A DNA stretch of 58,524 nt from Armatimonadota bacterium. Its GTDB lineage: Bacteria > Sysuimicrobiota > Sysuimicrobiia > Sysuimicrobiales > Kaftiobacteriaceae. A program made the position numbers and the translations under genes. Positions 676-5,305 of this stretch are shown here, piece by piece. Under the pieces are notes generated by a model, which did not search any database, had not been told where the DNA came from, and was given only the letters and a program-made list of their open reading frames with translations. Location: positions 1-58,524 of the forward strand of contig JAVHLZ010000015.1 in the NCBI GenBank assembly GCA_031081675.1, in the 5' to 3' direction. Numbering within the stretch: the first letter of the stretch is position 1; each line of letters begins with the position of its first letter.

Positions 676-3408
676 TCACCGGTTCCTGTCGCCGTCCATC
701 CCCCCGCCGCCGGTCCTGCACCGGACGAGGGGCGGCCCGGGGGTGGCGACGGAGCCCGAGGCAGGCGGCATCTCTTCCGCCAGCACCCGACACAGCGCCT
801 CGATCACCGCGGGGTCGAACTGGCTGCCGGCGTGGCGCCGCAGTTCGGCCACGGCCTCGTGGTGGGAACGGGCCGGCCGGTACGGGCGTGCGTCCGTCAT
901 GGCCACGTAGGCGTCGGCAGCGGCCAGGATGCGGGCGGCCAGGGGGATGGCATCTCCCCGGAGGCCGTCGGGGTACCCCGACCCATCCCAGCGCTCCTGG
1001 TGGTGCCGGATGATGGGAATGACGGGCTGCAGACTCCGCACCGGTGCCACGATCTGGGCGCCCACGTCCGGGTGGCGGCGTACCACGTCCCACTCGTCGG
1101 CGGTCAGCGGACCAGGTTTGCGCAGGATGGCGTCGGGGATGGCGATCTTGCCGATGTCATGCAGCAGGGCACCCCAGCGCAGCACCTGCAGCGTGGCCTC
1201 GTCGCACCCCAGGACCCGGCCGGTGGCCACCGCCAGCTCGGCCAGGCGGCGGCTGTGCTCGGCGGTGTAGGCGTCGCGGGCGTCGACGGCGTTGGCCAGG
1301 GCCAGGGCGAGCTGCACGTACGACTCCTCCAGGGCCTGGTGGGTCCGCACCCGCGCCAGGGCGTTGGCCGCGATCTCGGCCAGCGTGCCCAGCAGCCGCT
1401 CGTCATCCTGGTCGAAGGGACGGGCTGAGCCCGCCCGCAGCGCGCGCGCCACAAGCACGGTGCCCACCACGGTGCCCGCGGTGGTGCGCAGGGGCAGGCA
1501 CACCGCCGGCCCCAGCCCCGCGACCAGGTCCCGGTGAGCGACCTGCGGGTCAGACTCCAGGCGCATGCAGCGGTAACTGTGCCCGGTACGCAGCACGTGT
1601 CCGGAAATTCCGTCCCCGACTCCGTGGTGGCGGCCCGCGGCGTCCGGCAGGCCCCAGGAGGCGATCACCTCAATCTCCCGGCGGTCGGGGTCGGCCATGC
1701 ACAGCATCGCCACATCGGCATCGGCCAGACGCGCCGCCTGCTCGGTCACCTTGGCCGCCAGGTCCTCCTGCGTGTCGGTCCCCCGCAGGGCCTCGCTGGC
1801 GTGGGCGAGGGCGGAGAGGTCTCGCACGCGTCGGGCCAGTTCGTCCACAAGACGCGTGCGCTCGATGAGGACGGCTACCTCTCCGGCCACGGTGGTGAGG
1901 ACCCGCAGGTCTTCCGGGGAGAACGCCTGGGGGCGGGGGCTCTCGGCATTGATCACGCCGATGACCCGACCGTCCACGCGGAGGGGGACGCAGAGTTCCG
2001 ACCGGGTGTCGGGGATTCCCGGCACGTAGCGGGGATCGCCGGGGGCGTCGGGGGCCAGGACGGGTTCGCCGTGCCGGGCGACCCACCCTGTGATGCCTTC
2101 CCCGAGGGGAAGCTCGAGGATCGGGCTCCGAGTGGTCTCGTCGGTGGCCCGCACCCGCAGGCGGCCGTTTTCCACCAGCATGATCCACAGGTGTTCGTAC
2201 CCCAACCTGTCCTTGATTTCCCGAATGATGGCCCGAAGTGTCTCGTCCAGGCCCGAGGCCCGGGTGCTGGCGGCGCCGACGGCGTGCAGCAGGTCAAGCT
2301 CGGCGACGCGGCGACGCAACGACTGCATGACATCCACCCGGTGCAGCGCCAGGGCGGCGTAGTTGGCGATGAGGGATAGCAGGCGGGCGTCGTCGGCGGT
2401 GAACCGGCCCACCTCGGGAGAGGCGGCGGACATGGTGCCGATCACCCGGTCGCCGGCGACCATGGGGACGGCCACAGCGCTGCGCATCCCCAGCCGGGCA
2501 ATCAGCATCCGCGGGCGGAGGTGCGGGTATGTCCGAATGTCAGGGACCACCAGAGGGGTGCGCGTGCGGAACACGTGCCCCGACAGCCCCACTCGGCCGG
2601 CGATCGGGACGCGGTGGGTGCCGACGCAGTCGGCCGGCCATCCACAGCCGGCGTGCAGCACAAGCCATCGGCCGCCGTCGTCGGCCAGCCGCACGCCCAC
2701 CAGCGGTGCCCTCAGCGCCGCGGCGGCTGTCTGGACGGCCAGATCCATCACATCTTGAGGGTGCTCGGCGGCCAGGATATGCGCCGAGAGGTCGGCCAGT
2801 GTCGTGTGCTCGGCTGCGCGCTGGGCGCGCGCCTGCTCGTACAGGCGGGCGCGGTGAATCGCTGCGCCGAGCATCTGTCCGGCCGAGGTCAGGGCGGTGA
2901 GGTCCGGGTCGCCCACCCGGCGCACGCGCCAAGGCAGGAGAAGGTTGAGGATGCCCAGCCGTTCGTCGCCGGCCCGGAGGGGGATACTGATGTGGCGGAA
3001 CTCGGGTGCACGCGAGCGCGCGCCTGGGGACTGGCCCCGGGCCAGGCGCCGGAGGCGTTCGCATGCGACCACCGTGACCGCCTGCCGGAGGTCGCCGGCG
3101 AGCAGCATGCGCTGGCACCGGCACGGTGCCCAGCGGAGGGCCGCGGCATCATTGGCGGCCAGGTCGGACCGAAGGCCGTGGGCGACGGCGAGGGTAAACC
3201 GGCCGGATCTATCCACCAGGGTGATCCACCCCGTGGGTGCTCCCACCAGTTCCCGGGTGAGGGCCAGGCCGGTCTGCACGATCTCGTTCAGGTCCGTCAG
3301 GGCGTTGAGCCGGCGGGCGAGCGCCGCGAGAAGGTGCAGGTGGGAGGACACAGTGCGGCGGCCCGACCGGCTGCCGGTTCTGGATGCACTGTGAACGCTG
3401 CGTGTCAC
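676..3408 (-). CDS. Multi-GAF HD-GYP cyclic-di-GMP phosphodiesterase
   Basis: This 910-residue protein is predicted to be a cytoplasmic sensor and c-di-GMP phosphodiesterase. Four GAF-like domains follow one another (about residues 20-170, 185-340, 360-500 and 515-680). A C-terminal HD-GYP domain covers about 700-890. The HD-GYP domain keeps its metal-binding and signature residues: HDIGK near residue 750 and HHQERWDGSGYPDGLRG near residue 800. It should therefore be active, hydrolysing c-di-GMP to pGpG or GMP. No transmembrane segment is apparent. The GTG start at 3406-3408 is chosen because GGAGGGG lies 5 bases upstream of it, because homology to GAF begins soon after, and because a leader ORF ends exactly on it (GTGA overlap). 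An in-frame start further upstream would run through the riboswitch. The gene is headed by a c-di-GMP-I riboswitch and followed by the Kelch gene. Confidence 0.9.
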   Translation of the reverse strand: MTRSVHSASRTGSRSGRRTVSSHLHLLAALARRLNALTDLNEIVQTGLALTRELVGAPTGWITLVDRSGRFTLAVAHGLRSDLAANDAAALRWAPCRCQRMLLAGDLRQAVTVVACERLRRLARGQSPGARSRAPEFRHISIPLRAGDERLGILNLLLPWRVRRVGDPDLTALTSAGQMLGAAIHRARLYEQARAQRAAEHTTLADLSAHILAAEHPQDVMDLAVQTAAAALRAPLVGVRLADDGGRWLVLHAGCGWPADCVGTHRVPIAGRVGLSGHVFRTRTPLVVPDIRTYPHLRPRMLIARLGMRSAVAVPMVAGDRVIGTMSAASPEVGRFTADDARLLSLIANYAALALHRVDVMQSLRRRVAELDLLHAVGAASTRASGLDETLRAIIREIKDRLGYEHLWIMLVENGRLRVRATDETTRSPILELPLGEGITGWVARHGEPVLAPDAPGDPRYVPGIPDTRSELCVPLRVDGRVIGVINAESPRPQAFSPEDLRVLTTVAGEVAVLIERTRLVDELARRVRDLSALAHASEALRGTDTQEDLAAKVTEQAARLADADVAMLCMADPDRREIEVIASWGLPDAAGRHHGVGDGISGHVLRTGHSYRCMRLESDPQVAHRDLVAGLGPAVCLPLRTTAGTVVGTVLVARALRAGSARPFDQDDERLLGTLAEIAANALARVRTHQALEESYVQLALALANAVDARDAYTAEHSRRLAELAVATGRVLGCDEATLQVLRWGALLHDIGKIAIPDAILRKPGPLTADEWDVVRRHPDVGAQIVAPVRSLQPVIPIIRHHQERWDGSGYPDGLRGDAIPLAARILAAADAYVAMTDARPYRPARSHHEAVAELRRHAGSQFDPAVIEALCRVLAEEMPPASGSVATPGPPLVRCRTGGGGMDGDRNR

Positions 3409-3473
3409 TGCCGCCCCTCCCCAACCAGCCGAAGGAGAGGCGGCACAGGTACGCCAGTGGTCGCCAGGGCCAT
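3405..3473 (-). CDS. 22-codon leader ORF coupled to the HD-GYP start
   Basis: A short ORF starts with ATG at 3471-3473, directly after the last base of the riboswitch closing helix. It runs 22 codons and ends in TGA at 3405-3407, overlapping the GTG start codon of the HD-GYP gene by two bases. The sequence before its ATG is GAAGGTGGGG, a usable ribosome-binding site placed very close to the start. Translation of this ORF would pass straight through the hairpin that masks the HD-GYP ribosome-binding site. The peptide (MALATTGVP... at its start) has no recognisable function. That it is translated is inferred from position only; a chance ORF is possible. Confidence 0.5.
   Translation of the reverse strand: MALATTGVPVPPLLRLVGEGRQ
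3410..3444 (-). promoter_or_regulatory. Hairpin masking the HD-GYP ribosome-binding site
   Basis: On the minus strand the arms GCCGCCTCTCC (3434-3444) and GGAGGGGCGGC (3410-3420) pair over 11 positions with one U-G wobble and a 13-base loop. The right arm is the Shine-Dalgarno-like sequence of the HD-GYP GTG start at 3408. The stem would block initiation unless opened, for example by ribosomes translating the leader ORF. The pairing is seen directly; the regulatory role is inferred. Confidence 0.7.
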
Positions 3474-3591
3474 CCCCACCTTCGGCAGCCCGGCTGACTC
3501 CGGAACCGGGGTGGTCGCGCCCCACTCCCGTCCGGAGTCCCGCGGCTTTGCGTCCCCGCCTCGCGACGGGTTTGCCTTTATCGCTGTGAGG
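3474..3591 (-). promoter_or_regulatory. Cyclic-di-GMP-I (GEMM-I) riboswitch
   Basis: The minus strand carries the conserved GEMM-I core: AAAGGCAAACC, a stem capped by a GCGA tetraloop, GGGACGCAAAGCC, then a stem with arms GACTCCGG/CCGGAGTC, and finally AGCCGGGCTGCCGAA. The closing helix P1 can form between CCTCAC (3586-3591) and GTGGGG (3474-3479), with one wobble pair. The base matching Vc2 G20 appears to be G, as in c-di-GMP-selective rather than cGAMP-selective members. The second stem is longer than usual. It lies 66 bases upstream of an HD-GYP phosphodiesterase gene, which is a classic target. The P1 3' strand abuts the ATG of a leader ORF, which points to translational control. No clear promoter hexamers were found upstream. 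Confidence 0.93.
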
Positions 3592-3925
3592 ACTCCGCGG
3601 CCGGTATGGAGCAACCGCCATGCCAGAGGGCGATTGGCCCTTGAATTTTTCTCCGAGAAGGACGAGCGCCCCGTGGCCATCCCGGTCAGGCCCGTGGTTC
3701 CGGCGGGCCTCCCCGCGCCCGGATGGCTGTCCCGTCGCCTCTATGTGCCGTCACCCGAACGTGGGACGTGCGTACCCCCTGCGTGCATGCTGTAGTAAAA
3801 GGATCGCTCCCCACCATGGTGACTGTCACCCGGGGAAAGGCCCCAAAGGCCCAAAAACGAGAGGGTACTCTGCCCGATACCCGCGAACTACGTCGTCCGC
3901 AACTTCCCGAAGGAAGAGTGCGTGG
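3592..3925. other. Intergenic region upstream of the riboswitch
   Basis: This is the 334-bp gap between the stop of the MBL-fold gene and the c-di-GMP riboswitch. It contains a modest terminator-like hairpin near 3853-3882 on the minus strand. The promoter of the riboswitch operon must lie here, but no pair of hexamers stands out. No convincing gene is seen on either strand. Confidence 0.6.
3853..3882 (-). terminator. Probable intrinsic terminator of the tct-HAD-MBL operon
   Basis: On the minus strand GGGTA (3878-3882) and TACCC (3863-3867) form a short stem, extendable by one G-U pair. It is followed after CTCG by five U residues (3853-3857). It is placed about 45 bases after the stop codon of the MBL-fold gene. 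The stem is short, so the call is moderate. Confidence 0.4.
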
Positions 3926-4708
3926 CTACCCTAGCGGGTACACCGCCCCGTCCTCGGGAACGTCAATTGGACCGGTGAAGGTCGTTGATGCCTCGGCTAT
4001 CCACCGGGCAGGGGTTGCCTGCTCTCCCAGGTGCACCAACACCAGACGACGGGCGCCCGCGAGGGTGGCGACCCGGCCGGCCTCGGCCGGGGTAGAATGT
4101 CCTCCCACTCGCGCCCGGTCGGCTTCGTCTTCCGCATACGTGGCGTCGTGCACCAGGTAGGAGGCCCCCCTGCCGAACTGGGCAAGCGCTTCGAGAGGGC
4201 GGGTATCCGAGGAGTAGACGAGGCGGAGACCGGCTGGCGTCTCCCACCGAATTGCGAAAGTCTCGGGACCATGGTCGACCGGATGGGATGCGAGACGGTG
4301 ACCGTGGTATTCCCAGAACACCGTACCGGGATCTCCGGGGAGCGGACGGTACTCTAAGAACGTCCCCCGTCGGTCCAGGTCCAGGGCTGCCAGGAGACGG
4401 CGCAGAGGTTCCACGCCCTGTTCGGGCACGTAGATCGGAACCGGCGTTAGCTGTCGGCCGCGGGCCAACAGCCACAGGTTGTGGACGAGGGACGGGAGTC
4501 CGTAGACGTGGTCGGTGTGGAGATGGGTGATGACTACTGCTGCCAGCCGAAGGGGGTCCACTCCTCCCTGCAGCAGCTTCCGGCAGGCGCTACCCGGACA
4601 GTCCACGAGAACTGCCCGATCTTCGATCACGAGTGCAAGGGCGGTATTATCCCGTGCGGCCGTCTGAAGCGCTCCGCCGGTGCCCAGGAGAATCAGACGC
4701 GGGGTCAT
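3926..4708 (-). CDS. Metallo-beta-lactamase-fold hydrolase, RNase Z-like
   Basis: A 260-residue MBL-superfamily protein of the RNase Z/arylsulfatase-like group. The N-terminal strand LILLGTGGA is typical of this branch. The zinc-binding motif HLHTDH follows near residues 62-67. Later metal ligands are probably the His in SHPVDHGP, the Asp of YSSDTRP and the His of VLVHLGEQ. The length is shorter than tRNase Z of about 300 residues, and no clear exosite insertion is seen, so the substrate is uncertain. The ATG overlaps the stop codon of the upstream HAD-type gene (ATGA at 4705-4708). It is therefore the last gene of the tctC-tctB-tctA-HAD-MBL transcription unit and may act on a compound handled by that cluster. 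A terminator-like hairpin follows. Confidence 0.8.
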   Translation of the reverse strand: MTPRLILLGTGGALQTAARDNTALALVIEDRAVLVDCPGSACRKLLQGGVDPLRLAAVVITHLHTDHVYGLPSLVHNLWLLARGRQLTPVPIYVPEQGVEPLRRLLAALDLDRRGTFLEYRPLPGDPGTVFWEYHGHRLASHPVDHGPETFAIRWETPAGLRLVYSSDTRPLEALAQFGRGASYLVHDATYAEDEADRARVGGHSTPAEAGRVATLAGARRLVLVHLGEQATPARWIAEASTTFTGPIDVPEDGAVYPLG

Positions 4709-5305
4709 AGCGGCAAGCAGGGAAGCCGGGCGAGGGCCTCATCCCGCCCGGCCGGGTAGAAGGGGATGCCGCGGGAGACTGCTATCACCGCGTCGTGAGG
4801 AGTGTCTCCTACAAGGAGAGCGATCTGACGCCCCTCCGCCCGCAGGCGGTCGAGAACGACCCCCTCGTCGCCGCCCTGCGCGTACGTGACATGCTGCGCG
4901 AGGCCCCGGCGGAGGAGATCTTCCACCAGCTCATTCTCAGGCATGCCATTCACCACCACCACGTCGTATCGCTTTTGCAGGACACGGAGTACCCGCCGGG
5001 CCGACGGAAATTCGGGTCTCACGGCTGCCTGCGCCGTCACGTACTCGGAGAACTTGTGAAGGAAATCCCGCCGATGCCGGTCGGCGAGGAGGACGCCGGG
5101 TTCCCTCGCAGTTCCCTCGAGCTGGGCCAGGCAGTTTGCACCACTGGTGCGAGCGAATCGCCTCGACCCGGGACCGGGTTACCTCTGGCAGGCCGAGGAC
5201 CTCCCCCATGGCCTCCGCATCGGCGGCACTTGTGGCCGAGAATGTGTCCACCAGGATTCCGTCGTAGTCGAAGACGACCACCTGTCGAATCTCCGTGGTG
5301 TTCAC
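4705..5305 (-). pseudogene. HAD-superfamily hydrolase interrupted by a frameshift
   Basis: Two overlapping minus-strand frames together make one HAD-like phosphatase of about 200 residues. The first starts with GTG at 5303-5305, right after the tctA stop, and encodes the nucleophile motif FDYDGILVDTF and about 50 residues, ending sensibly near AEAIRS-type sequence. The second frame carries the rest, including a VVVNG motif-II-like stretch and LLVGDTPHDAVIA, the usual motif for the metal-binding aspartate. It ends at 4705 with a stop overlapping the MBL start. The switch needs a +1 shift (one extra base or two lost) near 5140-5150, where the second frame reads SGANCLAQLEG. Either the gene is broken, or the assembly has an indel; both halves look otherwise intact. 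Downstream coupling to the MBL gene is kept. Confidence 0.75.

Follow-up and report, generated by a model that had tools for sequence, protein, structure and literature searches.

The 58,524-nt stretch of DNA analyzed here (the window) carries on its minus strand a gene for an HD-GYP protein that is preceded by an aptamer of the c-di-GMP-I-GGC class and a short leader ORF (Table 1). The product of this gene is predicted from its domains to be a c-di-GMP phosphodiesterase, and the motifs of the HD-GYP domain, LHDIGK and HHQERWDGSGYP, are intact. Transcription probably starts at the aptamer, because ATAN is about seven-fold over-represented 8–24 nt before aptamers of this class (153 upstream regions) and CATACC is found at that spot; a full sigma-70 consensus site was not found near 3603–3608. 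An in-frame HD-GYP start at 3621, 5' of the aptamer, was considered and rejected, since the promoter-like box adjoins the aptamer and the frame would read through it. A terminator-like hairpin with a T-run (3863–3882, minus strand) is located between the upstream gene (3926–4708) and the riboswitch, which suggests that the riboswitch and the HD-GYP gene form a separate transcription unit.

Table 1. Features of the HD-GYP locus, in the order in which they are transcribed (positions in the window).
Feature	Position	Strand	Remarks
CATACC, -10-like promoter box	3603–3608	-	just 5' of the aptamer; ATAN enriched upstream of these aptamers
P1 5' strand CCTCAC	3586–3591	-	partner 3474–3479
c-di-GMP-I-GGC aptamer (RF03167)	3480–3585	-	64.1 bits vs. 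gathering cut-off of 59 bits; P3 extension of about 30 nt
Switching strand GCCGAAGGTGGGG	3474–3486	-	spans the 3' end of the aptamer and the P1 3' strand; pairs with 3428–3440 at 12 of 13 positions
P1 3' strand GTGGGG	3474–3479	-	also part of the leader SD-like region
22-codon leader ORF MALATTGVPVPPLLRLVGEGRQ*	3405–3473	-	ATG at 3473; TGA overlaps the HD-GYP GTG (3408)
Hairpin hiding the HD-GYP Shine-Dalgarno (SD)	3410–3444	-	-26.4 kcal/mol, z -3.1
Partner strand CCTCTCCTTCGGC	3428–3440	-	second strand of the alternative helix; also within the SD hairpin (5' arm, loop)
HD-GYP SD GGGGAGG	3416–3422	-	duplex energy with anti-SD -11.2 kcal/mol
HD-GYP gene, GTG start	676–3408	-	several GAF domains and an HD-GYP domain; Pfam HD_5 3.9e-43, GAF_2 1.6e-69

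The Rfam covariance model RF03167 matched the aptamer over its full length (1–80) with an E-value of 7e-13 for the window. Since the score exceeds the curated cut-off, the aptamer belongs to RF03167, which is a subclass of c-di-GMP-I (GEMM-I). An earlier note on this DNA had described a GEMM-I aptamer closed by a P1 helix of CCTCAC and GTGGGG, and both were found as described; P1 extends to 8 bp once the pairs U3592–A3473 and G3593–U3472 are counted. Moreover, the fold of the 118-nt aptamer region is more stable than that of shuffled sequences (z -2.9). In our own alignment to Vc2, the positions that we take to be equivalent to G20, A47 and C92 of Vc2 are 3576, 3549 and 3485, and the bases typical of c-di-GMP binders are present at all three. 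These Vc2 residues are ligand contacts (PMC4744006), and c-di-GMP is the ligand that we infer for the aptamer at 3480–3585.

The SD of the HD-GYP gene is hidden in the hairpin at 3410–3444, as the earlier note had also claimed: its 3' arm contains GGGGAGG, and none of 200 shuffled sequences folded as well. This hairpin was rejected as an intrinsic terminator because no U-tract follows it. In addition, a helix that is absent from the earlier note was found here, namely between GCCGAAGGTGGGG (3486–3474) and CCTCTCCTTCGGC (3440–3428), in which 12 of 13 positions pair, one of them as G-U. Its score of 28.5 corresponds to p = 0.008 in 500 dinucleotide shuffles, a post hoc value, since the mismatch-tolerant score was devised after the match had been spotted by eye; in an earlier test, which scored the longest exact match, the window reached p = 0.03 and enrichment across all loci was weak. 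The arrangement of strands recurs in relatives. When the same helix test was applied to the comparison set of 155 aptamer loci and their downstream regions, p ≤ 0.05 was reached at 13 of 38 other non-terminator loci, as compared to 0 of 19 loci that carry the SD directly in P1, have no need of such a helix and served as internal control. Searching the order for the P1 pattern of the HD-GYP leader returned only family members already collected. The alternative helix and the SD hairpin share 9 nt of one arm, and the alternative helix also excludes ligand binding, because its pairing takes the equivalent of Vc2 C92, a ligand contact.

We propose, with a probability of roughly 0.65, that the c-di-GMP-I-GGC riboswitch is a one-step translational OFF switch on the HD-GYP phosphodiesterase and that the leader ORF is most likely incidental. 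When c-di-GMP is bound, P1 would close and keep the aptamer 3' end; the strand at about 3428–3444 would then be available for pairing with the HD-GYP SD, and translation would be off. Without ligand, 3486–3474 would be captured by 3440–3428 once the latter is transcribed; formation of this helix would break the SD hairpin and expose the SD, and the HD-GYP protein would be made. High c-di-GMP would thus lower the level of the enzyme that degrades it, a predicted positive-feedback loop in an uncultured phylum in which the signal depresses its own degradation.

Folding predictions, in which neither ligand energetics nor tertiary contacts are represented, gave similar full-length energies of -127.4 (unconstrained), -126.6 (with P1 and P2) and -125.2 (with the alternative helix). 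In the full-length RNA at equilibrium, the SD hairpin prevails (0.998) irrespective of P1, which implies that the switch relies on co-transcriptional folding. In ligand-free growing transcripts, the alternative helix was predicted at 0.98–0.99 with the 5' end at 3604, and at 0.91 with the 5' end at 3598, until 3408 is out, and the states are near balance around 3400–3390. When P1 and P2 are enforced, formation of the SD hairpin is predicted at 0.98–1.0 from 3408 on. The SD is predicted to be about 0.02 open when P1 is formed, as compared to about 0.3 when the alternative helix is formed; opening in the latter state stays at only about 30% because the P1 5' strand can partly re-pair with the SD.

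The earlier note had gone further and proposed a two-step relay: P1 blocks the ribosome-binding region of the leader ORF, and in the absence of ligand translation of the leader melts the SD hairpin, so that ribosomes re-initiate at the overlapping HD-GYP GTG. The leader ORF, its stop-start overlap and the SD hairpin do all exist, and since the SD hairpin persists at full length without ligand, its opening needs some agent; moreover, a B12 riboswitch of Mycobacterium tuberculosis acts in this way (PMC11260477). However, the leader ORF and the overlap are not above chance. In 5000 trials in which P1 and the surroundings of the HD-GYP start were left unchanged and the rest was shuffled, an equivalent ORF ending in an overlap arose in 12.8% of the shuffles with ATG starts and in 20.7% with ATG, GTG or TTG starts. 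Over 73 loci of comparable spacing, there was no significant excess of leader ORFs, with two ATG leaders seen and 0.5 expected (P 0.1), and three seen and 2.9 expected when all start codons were allowed, and the leader ORF was rejected as a selected element on this ground. The coding signal within the leader is small as well (log-odds of 0.69 over 21 codons), and GC-rich leaders readily give apparent relay ORFs by chance. Additionally, the ribosome-binding region of the leader is predicted to be 0.17 open with the alternative helix and half paired with P1 formed; that it is mostly paired in the alternative state argues against the relay.

Relatives point the same way as regards the leader start. 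Two platforms of G006 with the hairpin GGCGGTCT/AGACCGCC carry AAGGGGTAATG, whereas in two homologous platforms of a sister genome (G003) sharing this hairpin no leader start is found at the same spot, although P1 is kept, and the leader of a G030 HD-GYP gene (L187), which has the same aptamer class and an SD hairpin, contains no candidate leader ORF. Loss of the leader ORF from relatives that retain aptamer and hairpin, which the earlier note regarded as speaking against its relay, is therefore seen in the platforms of other genes, whereas the checked relatives of the present HD-GYP gene lack the aptamer itself. The best candidate for a real relay lies elsewhere, at G004:C1:191992 (L007), where an 18-codon GTG leader runs from P1 to the beginning of another gene and ends there in an overlap of the same type, with an SD hairpin and no detectable alternative helix of the kind seen in the HD-GYP leader (p 0.97). 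Taken together, the proposal that leader translation is a needed second step is unsupported, given that the ORF is at the level of chance, the leader start is lost in the homologous G003 platforms and the alternative helix links the aptamer to the SD hairpin directly. We consider the relay unlikely for the HD-GYP gene and the one-step translational switch the better reading. What stands of the earlier proposal is that a riboswitch of the c-di-GMP-I type precedes an HD-GYP gene whose motifs are intact, and that closure of P1 is predicted to lower expression.

Two further explanations were weighed against the one-step translational switch. Control might be exerted on transcription, by Rho-dependent termination or pausing upon blocked translation, and not by access to the SD alone. 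Within the phylum, the platforms of this aptamer class are indeed often terminator-like (99 of 155 in a lenient scan), but besides the missing U-tract, no site resembling a terminator occurs on the minus strand between the aptamer and the gene, and we regard this explanation as rather improbable here. It is also conceivable, though unlikely, that the aptamer senses another cyclic dinucleotide or that the platform never switches, in which case there would be no c-di-GMP feedback. In the accessible literature, no record was found of a ligand bound by GGC-type aptamers, no aptamer of this class was found before the HD-GYP relatives checked, including the best relative elsewhere (L084, 55% identity), and in Bacillus, the genes behind a conserved class I aptamer are hardly regulated by it (PMC11218506). 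Against this stand the equivalents of G20, A47 and C92, which in our alignment match c-di-GMP binders, and the intact P1, aptamer core and SD hairpin.

A full orthologue of the HD-GYP protein is absent from its family, and no orthologue of its leader was found in the data examined. Genes for c-di-GMP turnover are known targets of c-di-GMP riboswitches (PMC7266159), and three other HD-GYP genes in the phylum (in G014, G030 and G027; L185, L187 and L214) are located downstream of the same aptamer class. Control of HD-GYP enzymes from such aptamers thus appears to recur with differing platforms; those of L185, L187 and L214 are either terminator-like or of the SD-hairpin type. The aptamer class itself was found in all 43 genomes of the phylum that were searched (G000–G042, one order), with about 224 copies in total and up to 13 per genome, which would be in line with a phylum-wide regulon in this uncultured phylum. 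One small contig of G000 (C43; L264) carries three aptamers, at 2945–3084, 4542–4688 and 4806–4967; two of them are arranged in tandem and separated by a terminator-like hairpin, and all have P3 inserts of 60–80 nt that are missing in relatives.

In 10 of 10 genomes of the family, an aptamer precedes a gene that reads as encoding a sigma-70-family sigma factor (G000:C4:111412, i.e., L265, and nine orthologues), and c-di-GMP may therefore control a sigma factor. In seven of these leaders (G002 and G004–G009), the SD and the aptamer strand compete for 7–13 shared nt, whereas only 0–5 nt are shared in G000, G001 and G003, where no clear competition is seen. With the strands in register, pairing occurs in 88 of 110 cells, as compared to at most 70 when they are slid against each other; this reflects conservation and not covariation, because the aptamer strand is nearly invariant.

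The HD-GYP leader can be compared with several known or related systems. It resembles the other members of RF03167 in that sequence and structure exceed the curated cut-off and in that a c-di-GMP-related gene is under predicted control, and it differs by its P3 extension. The sigma-factor leaders share the aptamer class, and their partner strand near CCTCCTTCGGC pairs with either the aptamer 3' end or the SD; however, they belong to another gene and have no leader ORF that runs from P1 to the gene start.

The uORF of the M. tuberculosis ppe2 B12 riboswitch is essential, with an NUGA stop-start overlap and a need for translation demonstrated by mutation (PMC11260477). The HD-GYP leader likewise combines a riboswitch, a short upstream ORF and a stop-start overlap, but aptamer and ligand are different, the ORF is not statistically supported, and relatives with a platform of this kind give no sign that selection maintains it. 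Because a uORF relay is known for that riboswitch, a relay at the HD-GYP gene would not be new in kind; if true, a second aptamer class would join the B12 riboswitch in using a uORF relay, perhaps also at G004:C1:191992. A further match is provided by class I c-di-GMP riboswitches that fold in a sequester/anti-sequester mode (PMC11218506). Mutually exclusive helices decide there whether the SD is hidden, as is predicted here, and at the HD-GYP locus the SD lies in a hairpin while the alternative helix uses the 3' strand of the aptamer and P1. The HD-GYP leader, in which switching is predicted, differs in that its partner strand, besides pairing with the switching strand, makes up most of the arm that covers the SD.
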